Positions 4,990 to 12,448 of a stretch of 45,195 nucleotides of DNA are shown one piece after another. Every line of letters begins with the position of its first letter. Position 1 is the stretch's first letter. A model generated the notes under the pieces. That model worked only from the letters and a program-made list of their open reading frames with translations, was not told where the DNA came from and did no database searches. Origin of the DNA: Anaerolineales bacterium (lineage in GTDB: Bacteria > Chloroflexota > Anaerolineae > Anaerolineales > Villigracilaceae); NCBI GenBank assembly GCA_014860805.1, contig JACZJB010000006.1, positions 1 through 45,195 of the forward strand, written 5' to 3'. Both the position numbers and the translations under genes were made by a program.

Positions 4990-7893
4990 TTATTTTTCTC
5001 TTCTTCGCAGGAAGAACTTTGTAATTTCCTCTGCAACAGCAGGCATGATTGCCAGACCGAGCACCAACCCCCATTCACGGGCGCTGAGGAAGTGAGTATT
5101 GAAGATGGGCTGTAGGAAAGGCACAGCGCACACGATCAACAGCAATGCAATGGAAATCCCCACCGCGTACTGCATGTATTTGTTCGAGAAAATACCGATC
5201 TTGAAAATGGACGCGCGTTCCGAGCGAACAGTATAAGCGCGGAACAATTCAGCGAGCGACAAGGTAACGAAAGCCATCGTTTCCGCTGTCTGAACGTCAA
5301 CGCCGCGCCATTCATGATTCAACACGAATGACAAAACGTTCGAACCTGCGGGGATAACTGCTCCTGCTTCGAGATGCCATGCCAACCCTGCGACAAATGC
5401 ACCGAGTACCGTGCTTGTTTGAGCAAAGGTCTGAATAATAATCCCGATCCCCATCGAACGGTTGATAATGGGTTCATTCTTGGCACGCGGCTTCTGATCC
5501 ATAATATCGGGATCGCCTTTTTCCATGGCAAGAGCCAACGCAGGCGCACCGTCCGTGATGAGGTTGAGCCAAAGCAATTGAATCGCAGTTAACGGAGCGG
5601 GCAAACCTGCCAACGTCGCGAGGAAAATGATCATGATCTCCGCCACATTGGAAGAGAGCAGGAAAAACACAAATTTGCGGATGTTGCTGTAGATGATGCG
5701 CCCCTGTTCCACAGCCGAGACGATGCTGGCATAGTTATCATCAGTGAGGACCATGTCTGCGGTTTCTTTTGCCACATCTGTGCCGGTAATCCCCATCGAC
5801 ACGCCAATATCTGCACGTTTGATGGCAGGAGCATCGTTCACGCCGTCACCCGTCATGGCGACGATCTCATCGTTGGCTTGCAAGGCATCCACGATGCGCA
5901 TTTTGTGTTCAGGGGAAACACGGGCGAACACGTCTGTATCCTCGATGACATTCTTAAGTTCGTTATCGTCAATCTTGTCAAGCTCGGCGCCTGTCATTAC
6001 CTTTTTACCGGGGCGCAGCAGACCAATTGACTCGGCGATGGCTTTGGCTGTATTTGGAAAATCCCCTGTGATCATCACCGTACGGATGCCTGCATGGCGC
6101 GCCTTTTCGAGCGCAGGCTTTACTTCAGCCCGCGGCGGATCGATCATGCCGAGCAAGCCAACAAAGACGAGCTCTTTTTCGAGATCATCGGCTTTGAGGT
6201 CTTCTGGATTATCAGGAACATCTTTTTCCAAACGATAGGCAAAGCCAAGCACGCGCAAGGCGTCTTTGGTCATGACATCGTTGGCGGCAAGAATGCGTTC
6301 TTTTGCTTCCTTTGTCATTTCGCGCGGCTTGTCGTCCATGCCTTGATATTTCGTGCACAACTCAAGCACAATATCCGGCGCACCTTTGACTGCAATAACA
6401 TCCCAATCCTTGTGTTTTTCATCGTAAAAAGGAGACAGGTCGTTTGGATTCGGGTTGCGCACATCGTGAATGGTGATCATGCGTTTGCGTTCTGAGTCGA
6501 AGGGCACTTCGTTTTCGCGCGGATAGGCCTCGTCAATTTCGACGTGGATCGCTCCAGCTTTGGCTGCTGCCACTAGCAGAGCACCCTCTGTCGGGTCGCC
6601 AACGATGCGATAGGTTTTGGATGAATCATTCTCGCCAGTGGATTCGATGGTCGAGTCGTTGTTCAACAGACCGAGCCAGAGTGTCGAAAGAATGGCGGGG
6701 TATTCATCCACATTTATTTTTTTGCCGTCCACTTGAAATTCGCCGTTGGGTGTATATCCTGTTCCTGTGACGTGAATGAATTGATTATCTGCCCATACGC
6801 GGGTGACGGTCATTTCGTTTTGGGTTAATGTTCCAGTTTTGTCGGAGCAAATTGTCGTGGCTGAACCCAGCGTCTCCACAGAAGACAGCTTGCGGATGAG
6901 CGCGTGGCGCTGCACCATTTCGCGCATACCGAGCGCGAGAGAGATGGTAACCACGGCAGGGAGACCCTCAGGAACGGCGGCAATCGCAAGGCTGATGGCA
7001 ATGATGAAAACTTCGGTAATTTCCGCGGCGAATTCTTTGAGGTAATCCAAAGGCGCAGAGAACAAGCCGCCAATTTCGGTGTAGTTGAAAAGCGCAACAA
7101 TAAATACAACGGCAACCAATATGAGCGAACCAATGCTCAATGACTTGCCGAGTTGGTCCAGCCTTCTTTGCAGCGGAGTCTCTTCCGTTTCCACATTTTG
7201 GAGCATGGTGGCAATAAGGCCAAGTTGTGTGTGCATGCCCGTGCTGGTCACCACACCGCGTCCGCGCCCGTAGTTGACAACGGTGCCCATGAAGGCAGTG
7301 TTCTTTCGATCTCCAAGCGGAACGTTTTTCTCAAGTACGGTGACTGCATTCTTTTGCACAGGCAGCGATTCCCCCGTCAGCGAGGCTTCCTCTACACGCA
7401 GGTTGACAGCTTCGAGCAGGCGCAGGTCCGCGGGAATAAAATTCCCTGCTTCCAAAAAGACAATGTCACCCGGCACAAGATTATAGGAGGGCACAGAAGT
7501 CCGCACGCCATCACGGATCACTTGCGCGTCTGGCGCCGCAAGTTTCTTAAGCGCTGCCAATGCCTGCTCAGCGCGTTGTTCCTGCACAATGCCAAGTACT
7601 GCATTCAAGACGACTATCGCCATGATGGCGGCAGCTTCCACATAGTCACCAAGCAATGCAGAAATAACTGAAGCGATGATCAAAAGGATCACCACAAAAC
7701 TGTTCAATTGCGCCCACAAGATGGTCAGAAAGCCCGGACGCGGCGCTTCACGCAGTTGATTGGGACCATAGTGTGCAAGGCGTTTCTCCACCTCTGCGGT
7801 TGTCAGGCCTTCATTATGTACTTCCAAATGTTTAAGGACATCCTCCGCTTTAAGCGCGTACCATTCCTGCTGCGTTGTCTCTTCGTGTGCCAT
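4990..7893 (-). CDS. P-type IIA Ca2+-type ATPase, probably exporting Ca2+ and/or Mn2+
   Basis: A full-length 967-aa P2A pump. Visible parts are a cation-ATPase N-terminal domain (1-75), actuator TGES (173-176), the M4 motif AAVPEGLP with Glu309, the phosphorylated Asp351 in [19 protein letters not shown] in the P domain and about ten membrane helices. The SERCA-type Ca2+ ligands are present: NVAE in M5, NLITDG in M6 and a Glu in M8 (SLAELFRAY). Glu309 and Asp351 even fall at SERCA numbering. The start at 7893 is backed by GGAG 6 nt upstream. A yybP-ykoY Mn2+ riboswitch lies in its leader, so Mn2+ export is a likely physiological role. Substrate specificity between Ca2+ and Mn2+ cannot be settled from residues alone. 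Confidence 0.93.
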
Positions 7894-7940
7894 GCAAATC
7901 TCCTGATACCAAATGGTTTTTGTCTGCCTAGTCTCTAAAT

Positions 7941-7973
7941 TAAAACAAGACCACCACGCCTCCGTGATAGTCT
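7941..7973 (-). terminator. Attenuator hairpin (expression platform) of the ATPase riboswitch
   Basis: On the minus strand AGACTATCACG (7973-7963), loop GAGG and CGTGGTGGTCT (7958-7948) form an 11-bp stem with two G-T pairs, followed by TGTTTTA. The 5' arm shares AGAC with the aptamer's 3' conserved box, so folding of aptamer and terminator would be mutually exclusive. Confidence 0.75.
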
Positions 7974-8072
7974 CGCCAAACGTCTAAGCGTCCGCGTTGC
8001 CGATGGCATTTAAGCCAATGAGATGACGGCAACGTATCCTGCACCCAACCGCAGGCGGCTACTCCCCAACCC
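7941..8072 (-). promoter_or_regulatory. yybP-ykoY (Mn2+) riboswitch leader of the P-type ATPase
   Basis: On the minus strand the leader begins about 8072. It carries the class hallmark GGGGAGTAGC (8067-8058), then a small CCGC/GCGG hairpin, then a long arm with stem CGTTGCCG/CGGCAACG (8034-8027 with 8002-7995), and ends with GGCGAGAC before the expression platform. This order of conserved 5' box, helical arms and 3' GAGAC box is that of the yybP-ykoY family, which senses Mn2+ and typically switches genes on. Known family members precede TerC proteins and P-type ATPases, which matches the gene here. I could not run a covariance model, so the call rests on motif recognition. Confidence 0.82.
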
Positions 8073-8078
8073 GCAGAT

Positions 8079-8108
8079 AGTGTACTCCAGTGTTAAATTC
8101 ACTGTCAA
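8079..8108 (-). promoter_or_regulatory. Sigma70-type promoter of the P-type ATPase leader
   Basis: On the minus strand a perfect -35 TTGACA (8108-8103), an 18-nt spacer and -10 TACACT (8084-8079) place the transcript start near 8072, just upstream of the riboswitch. Confidence 0.75.
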
Positions 8109-8178
8109 GGAGGGAAATTATCAATTCTGTTCAGCAGTATAATGTCTGAAGTAATTGATGCTTCATTCTGGAGGGAAC

Positions 8179-8622
8179 ATGCCTATTATAAAAACACCGA
8201 GGACTCGAGAGGAGTTTAAGGCGTACTACGCACTTCGATATAAGGTTTTACGAGAACCTTGGGGACATCCAAAAGGGACTGAAAAAGATGACTATGAACC
8301 GATCAGCGAACATTTTATGGCAGTGGATGAGCAAACAGGTGAAGTAGTAGGTGTGATTAAATTGTATGAGAAGGCACCCAATGTGGGGAATGTTTCTCAT
8401 TTGGCTGTTGCAACGGCTCACCAGCATAAGGGAGTTGGCAGGCTGTTGATTGAAGCTGTGGAAAATCGCGCACGAGAACGAAAGTTCAAAACCTTAGGCT
8501 CCATGTCTCGTGTAACCGCTACAGCCTATTTTGAAAGACATGGGTACCATATCGCCGGGATCCCGACCCCTCACCTGGGAACCATTCATCTGGTGTGGAT
8601 GGAAAAGGAATTGAAGGACTGA
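8179..8622 (+). CDS. GNAT-family N-acetyltransferase
   Basis: A 147-aa GCN5-related acetyltransferase. The beta4 strand (VSHLAVATAHQ) leads into the acetyl-CoA pyrophosphate loop HQHKGVGRLL, the Q/RxxGxG/A signature. The C-terminal YFERHGYHIAG is the usual end of the fold. The substrate is unknown; the family acts on small amines or protein N-termini. The start is ATG 8179, because GGAGG lies 4 nt upstream. An in-frame ATG at 8155 lacks a ribosome site. The gene ends at a strong bidirectional terminator shared with TerC. Its promoter must overlap the region of the divergent riboswitch promoter (8079-8150). Confidence 0.85.
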   Translation: MPIIKTPRTREEFKAYYALRYKVLREPWGHPKGTEKDDYEPISEHFMAVDEQTGEVVGVIKLYEKAPNVGNVSHLAVATAHQHKGVGRLLIEAVENRARERKFKTLGSMSRVTATAYFERHGYHIAGIPTPHLGTIHLVWMEKELKD

Positions 8623-8667
8623 AATATAAAACAGGGATTGCTTGACGAGCAATCCCTGTTTTATATT
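8623..8667. terminator. Bidirectional terminator with a 20-bp perfect stem
   Basis: AATATAAAACAGGGATTGCT (8623-8642) pairs perfectly with 8648-8667 across the loop TGACG. It closes the GNAT gene on the plus strand and overlaps the TerC stop codon (8666-8668) on the minus strand. Confidence 0.92.
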
Positions 8668-9538
8668 ATTCTACCGTCTGCGTTCTGGATGAACGAACAA
8701 ACAATCCAACAACAAGATCAAAGACAGCTTTAAAAGGCACGAATAACCAGTCTACAAATTCATTGATGATGCCAATCCCTTGTGCAAGCCAAGTTAACAC
8801 AAAGCGAAACTTTTGCAGAAACGGAATGTGTGCGTATGCCAGGGCAAGCAAGATGGTTAATATTGAAATTCCAAAACGTGCCAGGTCTGATATTTCGACA
8901 TGCCAGACCTGGTCGAGGATTAACTCTACGCCAATGTTCAACACGAGAATGTACGCAGCCTGCTTCAAGATCGGTTCGCGTTCCACGGCATAGCTAAAAA
9001 CTCCGGCAGCAAAACGCATTGTTAGAATGCCAATGCCAACTCCCAACAATACCACCCATATCTGCTCAGACAGGGAAACAGCCGCAACAACATTATCAAT
9101 GCTGAAGACAAGATCCATAGTCTCAACAGTCAGCACGGTTGCCCAAAACGAACGCACCTTGATCGGTTCAATGATCCCATCATCATCGCCGCTGCCAGCC
9201 ATATCTTCCAAATTGTCAAATGCGAGGTGGATCAAATAAACTGCGCCGATCAACTTGATCCAGGAGTTGTGAATGAGGAAGCTTGTAAAAAACAACATTG
9301 CCCCGCGGCCAACATAAGCTCCCAATAATCCCACGCGCAAGGCTGCCAATCTTTGAAAACCAAGAAAGGGATGCAGGATCTTTCCAAGCTTTTCCAGCCT
9401 GCCTGGCCATGGTACTTCCTGATTATCAGGAAGAGGAGACACCAACGCCCCAATCACCGCCGCATTATCGATGGATAATATCCCTTCCAAAAAGATCAGC
9501 TGCAAAATAATTACAACAATCGGCCAATACTCGTTCAT
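8666..9538 (-). CDS. TerC/Alx/YkoY-family integral membrane protein, probable metal (Mn2+) exporter
   Basis: A 290-aa polytopic protein of the TerC superfamily. Both signature segments are visible: an N-terminal FLEGILSIDNAAVIGALV and a second ETMDLVFSIDNVVAAV, the two SIDN motifs whose acidic and Asn residues line the metal path. Eight or so membrane helices surround an acidic loop (GSGDDDGIIE). Family members linked to yybP-ykoY RNAs export Mn2+, some while loading secreted enzymes; that role here is inference. The start is ATG 9538, preferred because GGAG sits 6-7 nt upstream; a GTG four codons earlier overlaps that site. It is transcribed alone from a TTGACA/TACACT promoter through a structured leader. 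Confidence 0.9.
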   Translation of the reverse strand: MNEYWPIVVIILQLIFLEGILSIDNAAVIGALVSPLPDNQEVPWPGRLEKLGKILHPFLGFQRLAALRVGLLGAYVGRGAMLFFTSFLIHNSWIKLIGAVYLIHLAFDNLEDMAGSGDDDGIIEPIKVRSFWATVLTVETMDLVFSIDNVVAAVSLSEQIWVVLLGVGIGILTMRFAAGVFSYAVEREPILKQAAYILVLNIGVELILDQVWHVEISDLARFGISILTILLALAYAHIPFLQKFRFVLTWLAQGIGIINEFVDWLFVPFKAVFDLVVGLFVRSSRTQTVE

Positions 9539-9600
9539 GTATTTCTCCACAACAGGGTTTTTGAATTTAATTCCACACTCATTTCAAATGAGTTTTGCCG

Positions 9601-9703
9601 AACAAATAAGGCCACCACGCATCCGTGGTGGCCCGAGTATCGATGAATGTTTCATGTGGGGGTTATATATTCCAATGAAAACATAGGCGGCTGCGCCTCG
9701 AAC
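9601..9703 (-). promoter_or_regulatory. Structured 5' leader of the TerC gene, candidate riboswitch of unassigned or diverged class
   Basis: The predicted transcript (start about 9703) contains three elements. First is a short GGCG-CAGC-CGCC hairpin (9697-9686). Second is a longer arm, ATGTTTTCAT (9684-9675) pairing with ATGAAACAT (9655-9647), whose loop ends in a C-run. Third is the hairpin GGCCACCACG-GATG-CGTGGTGGCC (9633-9610), followed by TTATTTGTT. A CGAG/CTCG pairing (9700-9697 with 9637-9634) could close a junction. The canonical yybP-ykoY GGGGAGTAGC is absent; the aligned stretch reads GAGGCGCAGCC. The terminator loop region is nearly identical to that of the ATPase riboswitch, suggesting common ancestry. 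Confidence 0.6.
9610..9633 (-). terminator. Attenuator-like hairpin in the TerC leader
   Basis: A perfect 10-bp GC-rich stem, GGCCACCACG / CGTGGTGGCC, with a 4-nt GATG loop, followed on the minus strand by TTATTTGTT. It lies 72 nt before the TerC start, so it probably acts as a conditional terminator and not as an end-of-operon signal. Confidence 0.7.
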
Positions 9704-9709
9704 GTTTTT

Positions 9710-9738
9710 AGTGTATCCACATGCAAATGGATTGTCAA
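9710..9738 (-). promoter_or_regulatory. Sigma70-type promoter of the TerC leader
   Basis: On the minus strand TTGACA (9738-9733), a 17-nt spacer and TACACT (9715-9710). Both hexamers are identical to those of the ATPase leader promoter. Confidence 0.78.
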
Positions 9739-9760: not shown

Positions 9761-11737
9761 TCACTGCTTAATAGAATATAGCTTAAAGTACTCATTTGTG
9801 GCTTCCAACTCTAGAAAGGGCAAAATTGGGTCAAATTGTTCTGAAAATTGTTGGTAGGTCGGATATTTATAAAGGAGGATATGGGTGTACCCTTTCGATT
9901 TCCAATCATTCAGGATCGCATCCACATTTCCGTACAGGAAGTAATCGTGCGCAAGATTGTTGTTGATCGGGTCCGGTTGAGCTTTGCGAGGCATATTGTA
10001 ACTACGCGGTTCAAACATGAAATACACAAATGCATCGGGCGGTGTCGAGTCCACCAGTTCAAGAGCGGATGAATAACGGGGCTGCACCCGCTGAAAGTAG
10101 GACTGTCGCGATTCCATCCCAAGGGCATATTGCAAAGGTCTACGGACTATCAGGCTCAAGGTATTGTCGAGCAAGGTCATTGTAATGATGAAGCCAATGA
10201 TCACAGTATAGATAAAACTCATTCGAAAGCGCGGCAGGTCCAATTTGGACAGAAGCGTGATGCCAAATCCAATGGGAATGGAGAGAGAGAGAAGGCCAGG
10301 CCAGAGTAGACGCGACTGCCAAAGGGATATCGTTTGAGTAACACCTAAAGTCCAGAACAGATAATTGAGCAGGGCAAATTCACCAAATATAAAAAAGGCT
10401 TTTCGCGCAGACTCGGAGGCGGAACGATTTTTCCAGAGTGCCCAAACTGCAAGCGGGAGGAACAGGAGAAATAATACGCCGATGCGTCCATCAAAATAAT
10501 TTTGGTCGCGATGACCGAGCGTGATGTTGAACGGCAACAGAACAAGTTCAATGGGATTCCATCCAATACCTGTACCACTGCCCGCATACCATTCTGCTTG
10601 AAATACGTCCCAGTAGCGTCCGCCGAATACAAACGGGTAGAAGGGATTTCCCATGACAACCCAGTTGCGAATGTACCAAGGGGACGCCGTCAGAACAGCT
10701 GTCAACGAAAAGGATATTATCGAGACAATGCCTGCATAGAAATTTTTTCCCCATAAAAAGAACAATGCAACACAAAAAATCGGCACAATAAAACTTGTAT
10801 ACTTGATACCCATTGCCATTCCAGCAAACAAGCCGCTGATAATGCTCCATCTATTATTTGTGCCATTTGATTTCCAAACAGCATAGAGAGCAGCGAGCCC
10901 AAAAAATGCAAGCGCAATATCTGTATATGCCCACGACGAAAGCCAGGGAAGGGACGGCATAGAGATTAGAACAGCCAGAGACCACCATGCTATTTTGCTC
11001 CCAGATATTGCGTACGCCCATTCCCACACCAGCCCAAACATGAGCAGCGAAAATGTCCAATGGATTAATTGTGCTGTACTCTCGGCACCGAGACCGAGAG
11101 CCCAAATAAAATTCCCTTCCATCAAGCCTGGAAACCAGAATTGAAGAATATTATATGGAATTATCCGTTGATCAGCCAACAGTCTTTCAGGCAGGGCAAG
11201 ATGATAGAACAATCCATCGAACCCTTCGGCTGGAGGCAGGAGAGCAAAGATGAAACCAATGATTAAGGTTGCTGCAATAGCGGGCGGAAGCCATGCAGGA
11301 ATATCACTTTGTGTATCTCGAAATGAAATTAAAAACGAGCGTAAACAACTCCATAACGTGATATGAAGCTGTGAGATAAAGACCCAACCCAATATGGCAA
11401 AAAGAATGGCAAGTAAAATGAGCGGTTTTGCAACACCCATTGCCCCCAATCCATAGCCGAGCAGACCAAATACGCCAAGGCCAAGCCCCGTCCCAAGGAG
11501 TATCTGTTCATGGGGATTGACGAACAATTGCATCTGCTTGAATAAAAAAGACCCCAACGCTGCAGAGTTCACGATCAGGATGATAGCCAATGCAACGGCC
11601 CACAGCGTTGCCATAGTTCCACTAATCACTTGAAGAAACAAGGGACGCTGTGTGATATAAAATGCAGATAAAATGAACGCGCTCCAAATCAGAAACACTG
11701 CTGCGTATGTGATTTTTCCGATAGTTTCTTTACCCAT
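9761..11737 (-). CDS. Polytopic GT-C-type membrane glycosyltransferase-like protein
   Basis: A 658-aa protein with about 12 or more membrane helices and a soluble C-terminal tail (about 540-658). The first large loop holds EGFDGLFYHLALPERLL, the acidic extracytoplasmic position typical of lipid-linked-sugar GT-C enzymes (PMT/ArnT-like fold). The stretch ASPWYIRNWVVMGNPFYPF recurs in that superfamily. Such enzymes transfer sugars from polyprenyl-phosphate donors on the outer face of the membrane; donor and acceptor are unknown. The start is placed at ATG 11737 (MGKETIG), ahead of the first helix; a further 33 upstream codons are open but their sequence is not membrane-like. No strong ribosome site is seen. 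TATAAT about 10 nt upstream could be a -10, implying a very short leader. Confidence 0.7.
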   Translation of the reverse strand: MGKETIGKITYAAVFLIWSAFILSAFYITQRPLFLQVISGTMATLWAVALAIILIVNSAALGSFLFKQMQLFVNPHEQILLGTGLGLGVFGLLGYGLGAMGVAKPLILLAILFAILGWVFISQLHITLWSCLRSFLISFRDTQSDIPAWLPPAIAATLIIGFIFALLPPAEGFDGLFYHLALPERLLADQRIIPYNILQFWFPGLMEGNFIWALGLGAESTAQLIHWTFSLLMFGLVWEWAYAISGSKIAWWSLAVLISMPSLPWLSSWAYTDIALAFFGLAALYAVWKSNGTNNRWSIISGLFAGMAMGIKYTSFIVPIFCVALFFLWGKNFYAGIVSIISFSLTAVLTASPWYIRNWVVMGNPFYPFVFGGRYWDVFQAEWYAGSGTGIGWNPIELVLLPFNITLGHRDQNYFDGRIGVLFLLFLPLAVWALWKNRSASESARKAFFIFGEFALLNYLFWTLGVTQTISLWQSRLLWPGLLSLSIPIGFGITLLSKLDLPRFRMSFIYTVIIGFIITMTLLDNTLSLIVRRPLQYALGMESRQSYFQRVQPRYSSALELVDSTPPDAFVYFMFEPRSYNMPRKAQPDPINNNLAHDYFLYGNVDAILNDWKSKGYTHILLYKYPTYQQFSEQFDPILPFLELEATNEYFKLYSIKQ

Positions 11738-11839
11738 AAATAGTATTATAAAAGAAGTTATGCGAAATATATAGAACTCGCTAATAATTACGAACTGGTC
11801 ACTAAACAAAATTGCCTGGATGCGATTACAATTCACGCC

Positions 11840-12448
11840 ATGTCCAAATTCAAACCGCCAATTATTTATTTCTTCATCACAGTCATTGCCATCGCAATGC
11901 TGACTCTTCTTGGTCCCGAGGAGAAATCACTAGGCGCCAATGTGCGCATCGTCTACCTGCATGGAGCCTGGGTGCTGACTGCCGAAATTGCTTTCTTCGC
12001 CGCGGCGCTTGCCGGACTTTTAGGTTTGCTCCTGCGTAAGGACATTTTCCACACCTGGTCTGCCGCGCTCGGCCGTACGGGTATCATCTTCTGGATCACC
12101 TACCTTCCACTTTCATTATTTGCCATGCAAAGCAATTGGAACGGGCTCTTCCTCGCTGAGCCGCGATTCCGACTCGCCATGATATTTGCAATAACGGGTG
12201 TTTTGCTTCAAATCGGCTTGTGGATCTTCAATATTTCCTGGCTTACATCGCTGGCAAACATCATCTATATTGTTGTTTTACGAGTGATATTTTCCACCGC
12301 CGAAAACATCATGCACCCGCCTCCATCGCCGATCTTCAACTCAGGGAATTACGTCATCATCGGATTCTTTGTCGGCTTGAATCTGCTGGCTTTGCTCGCC
12401 GCCTATTTTCTGACGCGCTTCTTCATGACCCTTAAATCAAACAACTGA
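11840..12448 (+). CDS. CcmC/CcsA-like multi-helix membrane protein, divergent
   Basis: A 202-aa protein with five or six membrane helices. The segment EKSLGANVRIVYLHGAWV resembles the region of CcmC (haem exporter for cytochrome c maturation) where the MG...RI.Y.H sequence precedes a conserved His. The FAMQSNWNGLFLAEPR loop lies where a WWGTYW-like Trp-rich element would sit but lacks the canonical form. HPPPSPIF forms a second His-containing periplasmic loop. Relation to haem handling is therefore a weak inference; hypothetical membrane protein is the safe call. It heads a plus-strand run with the MFS transporter (8 bp) and methyltransferase. Confidence 0.55.
   Translation: MSKFKPPIIYFFITVIAIAMLTLLGPEEKSLGANVRIVYLHGAWVLTAEIAFFAAALAGLLGLLLRKDIFHTWSAALGRTGIIFWITYLPLSLFAMQSNWNGLFLAEPRFRLAMIFAITGVLLQIGLWIFNISWLTSLANIIYIVVLRVIFSTAENIMHPPPSPIFNSGNYVIIGFFVGLNLLALLAAYFLTRFFMTLKSNN

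Follow-up and report, generated by a model that had tools for sequence, protein, structure and literature searches.

The TerC leader of an Anaerolineales bacterium as a probable decayed Mn2+ riboswitch that keeps its promoter and a predicted attenuator

The leader of a TerC gene in an Anaerolineales bacterium (contig JACZJB010000006.1, of which we analyzed a stretch of 45,195 nucleotides, here called the window) poses a simple question: is this RNA a sensor of its own, or is it what remains of one? The encoded protein scores 171.4 bits with TIGR03716 (R_switched_YkoY; cut-off 138.5), placing a member of a riboswitch-linked exporter family downstream of the leader. A first-pass annotation made from the DNA letters had described the leader as a structured RNA of an unrecognised or strongly diverged riboswitch class. 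We found the promoter, a short GC hairpin, the attenuator, the Shine-Dalgarno (SD) sequence and the ATG where that annotation had placed them on the minus strand (Table 1). The -10 element lies 171 nt from the ATG, and transcription probably starts near 9703. The attenuator consists of a 10-bp hairpin, 71 nt before the ATG, with a dG of -20.9 and a terminator score d of 35.9.

Table 1. Position and make-up of the TerC and ATPase genes and their leader elements in the window
Feature	Position	Strand	Details
TerC promoter TTGACA-17-TACACT	9710..9738	minus	TTGACA 9738-9733, 17-nt spacer, TACACT 9715-9710
First 33 nt after -10	9677..9709	minus	conserved; holds GC hairpin 9698-9685
Drifting middle	9634..9676	minus	position of aptamer core in ATPase leaders
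Predicted attenuator	9601..9633	minus	hairpin GGCCACCACG-GATG-CGTGGTGGCC 9633-9610; U-rich tail TTATTTGTT 9609-9601
TerC gene, YkoY-type membrane protein	8666..9538	minus	ATG 9538, SD GGAG 9548-9545; PF03741 and TIGR03716 above cut-offs
P-type ATPase Mn2+ riboswitch leader	7944..8108	minus	promoter 8108-8079, aptamer 8075-7976, attenuator 7977-7944
P-type cation ATPase	4990..7893	minus	driven by TerC-type promoter in genus members without TerC

Known RNA families did not identify the leader. No Rfam family reached its cut-off anywhere in the window, and RF00080 (yybP-ykoY) gave no match to the TerC leader at E ≤10, also when the leader was searched alone; the best Rfam match in that search was isrD at 18.1 bits (cut-off 37). 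The terC RNA motif (RF03067) is located upstream of terC genes, a position that the TerC leader shares, but RF03067 did not match the leader at E ≤10, and its one match in the bacterium's own genome lies elsewhere and reaches 16.6 bits (cut-off 39.9). We therefore rejected identity with this motif, a relation that the first-pass annotation had raised. The phrase 'terC RNA motif' was not found in a limited search of the open-access literature.

The RF00080 cut-off is nevertheless a weak test for this lineage, because intact ATPase leaders fail it too. The leader of the P-type ATPase in the window scores 15.7 bits (7928-8069) against a cut-off of 45, the ATPase riboswitches at loci L059, L060 and L061 score 19.8, 19.4 and 28.6 bits, and none of 20 intact Mn2+ riboswitch loci of the genus (L117-L136, the 20 scanned of 30) reached the cut-off. 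The Rfam threshold for the Mn2+ riboswitch thus misses this lineage.

We found an ATPase orthologue in 40 of 57 genus genomes. Counting as intact the leaders with core and attenuator, and as aptamer-less those with the core lost and promoter and hairpin kept, we found 27 intact leaders, 8 with the core lost, 1 partial leader (G121) and 4 genes without a leader. The alignment of the 27 intact aptamers contains 21 pairs, 10 of which show at least one double change, and from these aptamers – the window's ATPase leader among them – we built a lineage model, R1. It gives 83.1 bits to the window's ATPase leader, a member of the training set, and 51.6 bits to the partial leader; by its sequence, the ATPase neighbouring TerC keeps an intact Mn2+ riboswitch. 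The window's TerC leader scores 9.7 bits (E 1.8 over 129,702 bases), aligned at 9707-9634; in the remaining three leaders of TerC under this promoter R1 finds nothing at E ≤10. When the 208-nt TerC leader was searched alone with filters off, the 9.7-bit match (E 0.003) aligned the homologous 5' part, which fits ancestry and not an intact aptamer. R1 matches a single one of the 8 aptamer-less ATPase leaders, that of G134 (14.0 bits), whose ATPase is 98% identical to the window's. TerC itself was found in 20 of 152 family genomes; over all 20 loci, the window's 9.7-bit match is the only one that R1 finds upstream of TerC, and the others lie downstream.

Two TerC loci (L063 1219-1324 and L065 2415-2519, in genomes G071 and G139) hold an intact, R1-detected Mn2+ riboswitch between TerC and a second, Alx-type TerC-family gene (TIGR03718, 437 and 438 bits; cut-off 246.4). 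The bacterium's own genome carries a second Mn2+-riboswitch-like leader (C21:15470-15561; L001 1498-1589; 23.1 bits with RF00080, 29.8 bits with R1); a short reading frame and a further P-type ATPase lie downstream of it.

The hallmark GGGGAGTAGC is missing from the TerC leader, as the first-pass annotation had noted. In the four TerC leaders, the L1 loop GGGGAGUAGC is replaced by GAGGCGCAGC, GGGGCACAGC and, twice, GGGGCGUAAC. The triplet UCA is invariant in 27 of 27 aligned aptamers, and neither the alignment nor R1 places a homologous P3/L3 in the TerC leaders. An invariant L3 adenosine contacts Mn2+ in the Mn2+ riboswitch, according to PMC6754395, and UCA probably holds, by equivalence, the adenosine whose N7 makes this contact in solved structures.

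The TerC leader retains clear marks of its ancestry. A DNA search with it across 150 family genomes, its own included, matched 43 at E ≤0.1, and the 23 best matches (the window itself excluded) all fall within query bases 3-72. Twenty-two come from the same genus and one (G007) from another; 3 are TerC leaders (L004-L006) and 20 are P-type ATPase leaders (L007-L026), one of them in front of an ATPase only 45% identical to the window's (G097). TerC was not found in any of the 20 genomes with matching ATPase leaders. The canonical core is present in 18 of these 20 leaders (exceptions G134 and G122), with TTGACAATCCATTTGCATGTGGATACACTCAAAGCGTTTGGGGAGTAGCCGCCTG as the typical sequence; in the window, G076, G129 and G130, TerC stands under the same promoter, and GAGGCGCAGC, GGGGCACAGC or GGGGCGTAAC replaces GGGGAGTAGC. 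The promoter is identical in 29 of 29 columns among these four TerC orthologues and equals the consensus of 26 same-type promoters in the genus (22 ATPase, 4 TerC). Comparison of GRGGCRYARCCGCC with GGGGAGTAGCCGCC identifies the first 33 nt as an apparent relic of the 5' end of a yybP-ykoY aptamer.

Gene order points the same way. Upstream of the ATPase, 16 of the 20 loci have as their next gene a homologue of window gene 11840-12448, which is divergent and matches no NCBIfam family, and G054 has a homologue of window gene 9761-11836 (no Pfam family); neither homologue was found in the stretch examined at the remaining 3 loci. TerC adjoins 9761-11836 in the window and a homologue of 11840-12448 in G076, and therefore occupies the place where the ATPase starts elsewhere. 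In the window, G076, G129 and G130 the order is TerC, acetyltransferase, ATPase, and the ATPase has its own intact riboswitch under a different promoter. An exact search of the window finds the core CACGGANGCGTGGTGG in two places, the TerC attenuator and that of the ATPase, which bears out the likeness that the first-pass annotation had seen between them; with up to 2 mismatches there are 3 matches against 0.05 expected, the third overlapping the TerC hairpin on the opposite strand. We read the window's ATPase leader as one promoter type joined to an attenuator like those of TerC-less genomes, and recombination may lie behind this arrangement. Promoter, 5'-leader identity and gene order together support descent of the TerC leader from the ATPase Mn2+ riboswitch, which the first-pass annotation had suggested. 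The block of TerC, acetyltransferase (mostly inverted) and P-type ATPase, window 4990-9550, is common to loci L037-L041, and a long hairpin at 8628-8664, between the convergent acetyltransferase and TerC genes, is by eye likely their common terminator.

We next asked which parts of the leader are maintained, comparing the four TerC leaders (window, G076, G129 and G130) – about three independent samples, since G129 and G130 share 97% amino-acid identity. A fifth close TerC orthologue, G102 (82% identical), lacks both this promoter and the hairpin and was omitted. Identical columns number 25 of 33 in the first 33 nt, 13 of 52 in the middle, 17 of 24 in the hairpin, 18 of 54 from the hairpin to 20 nt before the ATG and 5 of 20 in the last 20 nt; at four-fold sites of the four TerC genes the count is 21 of 95. 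Binomial tests against this four-fold rate give p 8e-11 for the first 33 nt, 0.62 for the middle and 5e-7 for the hairpin. This pattern indicates that the promoter spacer, the first 33 nt and the hairpin are under selection and that the middle, in which the four-orthologue alignment shows no conserved element, drifts like four-fold sites.

Base pairing sets the two hairpins apart. Across 14 positions in the four orthologues, 47 of 56 attenuator cells are standard pairs. Double changes fall at 3 positions, of which two lie at the base. Pairing is almost complete over the eight outer positions; further in, three relatives carry an A-C mismatch, and G129 and G130 show two more broken pairs. In the GC hairpin we saw no double change, and one of its pairs is broken in G076; we set it aside as a structural element. 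Of the stems that the first-pass annotation had proposed, the attenuator is thus conserved among close relatives and carries compensatory changes at its base; the GC hairpin carries none. Given a GC-rich hairpin and U-rich tail kept by selection between promoter and gene, we regard this element as a predicted intrinsic-terminator attenuator. In the window, a 17-bp palindrome, ACTCATTTGAAATGAGT, lies at 9577-9593, between hairpin and start codon; it was not seen there in the three relatives.

Folding of the 118-nt leader (z -2.83, with 3 of 200 shuffles equally good) is accounted for by the attenuator hairpin, which with its tail reaches z -5.49. For the 76 nt preceding the hairpin z is -1.52, a value reached in 15 of 200 shuffles, and roughly corresponding stretches in the three relatives give 0.11, 0.54 and 0.38. 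Because a strong z appears only with the hairpin, the earlier figure of about 100 structured nucleotides was overstated, and clear structure is confined to the hairpin; a 9-bp arm described with it appears in the predicted fold and gains no further support. With the middle drifting like four-fold sites and the non-hairpin part folding no better than most shuffles, with no credible Rfam match and with 9.7 against 83.1 bits in the lineage model, we found no support for a new or diverged riboswitch class.

Aptamer loss in this genus extends to the ATPase. The eight ATPase leaders that have lost the core (G134, G122, G131, G138, G106, G108, G100 and G126) are like the TerC leader in that the promoter survives in them together with a hairpin and its U-rich tail; they differ in the gene that they precede, in representing separate losses and in their residual sequence. 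A tree of the ATPase, built on the first 600 residues of 43 rows, requires 2 changes for the aptamer-less label relative to the other labelled rows, with 2 forced by starred branches, a count that leaves out 26 unlabelled and mostly intact rows. The aptamer core would on this tree have been lost at least twice, and the TerC leader appears to be a further case. The four states intact, partial, aptamer-less and leaderless need 7 changes. The four leaderless ATPase genomes form one clade (100/100); at these loci (L090, L095, L097 and L102; G146, G151, G144 and G117) the start codon follows the -10 element by 6-18 nt.

The predicted terminators differ in strength. Median d is 11.9 in aptamer-less ATPase leaders (n=8) and 29.6 in intact ones (n=27; p 2.8e-4, kinship ignored), a difference that a need to restore read-through would predict; in 3 of the 8 (G138, G108 and G131) d falls below zero, so their terminator function is doubtful. 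The TerC leaders score 35.9, 13.9, 4.3 and 3.3, which is not significantly different from the intact leaders (p 0.08, kinship ignored). Their U-tracts are poorer, at 3.74-3.78, than those of intact leaders, for which the median is 4.31 (p 0.007, kinship ignored), and 2 of the 27 intact leaders lie below 3.8. The strong TerC hairpin of the window species argues that its own terminator has not been relaxed.

Taken together, these comparisons lead us to think that the TerC leader is probably a decayed yybP-ykoY Mn2+ riboswitch that now acts as a fixed attenuator and holds TerC expression at a reduced level independent of Mn2+. We favor a relic over a new sensor because the promoter and the transcription-stop hairpin are kept and the metal-sensing part is lost. 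The sigma-70-type promoter, the first aptamer stretch and the hairpin with its U-rich tail remain; comparison with the ATPase leaders indicates that the sensing core has drifted away. RNA polymerase would start near 9703, part of the transcripts would end at the hairpin, and the rest would read through into terC at a reduced level and without dependence on Mn2+. Attenuation would be the default state, because the sensing parts are gone and the hairpin stays.

In the L. lactis Mn2+ riboswitch, as described in PMC11087558, the 3' segment of switch helix P1.1 joins the terminator when Mn2+ is absent. The TerC leader resembles RF00080 systems of this terminating type in its promoter, aptamer 5' start and hairpin with U-rich tail, has a metal-exporter-type gene downstream and goes back to a common ancestor with the genus's ATPase leaders; it differs in its altered L1 loop, in the unrecognisable remainder of the core and in having no significant RF00080 score. 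Three observations sit less easily with a relic: the conservation of the first 33 nt exceeds what the start of an ordinary transcript would need (p 8e-11), decay by itself leaves the retention of the hairpin unexplained, and TerC in G102 does without this promoter and the hairpin. A limited open-access search for degenerate, vestigial or lost riboswitches returned no account of the present case in titles and abstract openings, from which we claim no absence. On this reading, a riboswitch has lost its sensor but its promoter and terminator-like hairpin are still selected for, and a single genus offers intact, aptamer-less and leaderless leaders for comparison, which makes testable how a gene is regulated once the aptamer has died and a default-off terminator is left.

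Selection on the promoter spacer, first 33 nt and hairpin is also what one would expect if the attenuator were still conditional without a classical aptamer. Read-through would then be governed by the first 33 nt themselves or by a protein that binds either this segment or the promoter spacer. We consider this unlikely. A 5' segment, GRGG-CCGCC, can pair with the hairpin 3' arm GGYGGCCTY in all four TerC leaders (p 0.014-0.056 in single-leader shuffles), but the signal fades when conserved columns (p 0.08) or the arm (p 0.13) are shuffled, and predicted occupancy is at most 0.006 expected pairs against 8-11 in the hairpin; an antiterminator in which the start of the transcript pairs with the 3' arm therefore remains a weak lead. 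The promoter-spacer pattern has 17 genome matches at up to 3 mismatches against 0 in a backward control, yet all seven sites examined, of the 16 besides the TerC site, fall within long reading frames. A spacer operator built on the dyad ATCCA-N8-TGGAT, of which 14 of the 26 promoters of the TerC type carry a perfect copy, is no more than a candidate.

Leaders in which a promoter is followed by a hairpin with no aptamer occur before the 8 ATPases and, outside the genus, before TerC at L106, L107 and L108, and these too speak for conditional attenuation. Riboswitch leaders of the genus might then lose the aptamer repeatedly and keep promoter, first stretch and attenuator under selection because conditional read-through persists; we hold this broader proposal to be improbable in the same degree. 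The read-through signal in such an aptamer-free mode may come from RNA polymerase, NusA, a trans-acting factor or the conserved 33-nt segment, and TerC would be one of several genes under aptamer-free attenuation inherited from the Mn2+ riboswitch.

Still less probable, in our judgment, is that the hairpin is kept merely as a stabiliser of the mRNA 5' end or as the terminator of an upstream gene. Window gene 9761-11836 does lie upstream on the same strand, but G076 has in that place the divergent gene (window 11840-12448), so there is no upstream transcript to end, and the hairpin is kept; the U-rich tail that follows it in 4 of 4 leaders is not needed by a stabiliser. Continued Mn2+ sensing by a yybP-ykoY riboswitch whose core has changed, as the first-pass annotation had envisaged, would suit the clear descent and the Mn2+-linked YkoY-type gene downstream, but we regard it as very improbable, given an GGGGAGUAGC loop altered in 4 of 4 TerC leaders, an invariant UCA with no counterpart in the drifting middle and 9.7 bits with the lineage model.

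Several leaders show further variation on the arrangement that we attribute to a decayed riboswitch at TerC. At L106, L107 and L108, which belong to other genera, a promoter is followed some 25 nt on by a terminator-like hairpin, at most about 100 bases upstream of TerC, and the interval leaves no space for an aptamer. In two aptamer-less ATPase leaders, a small hairpin is visible by eye at the former aptamer site, GAGGC/GCCTT at L075 (G122) and GGCGG/CCGCT at L105 (G131), each perhaps a new element.
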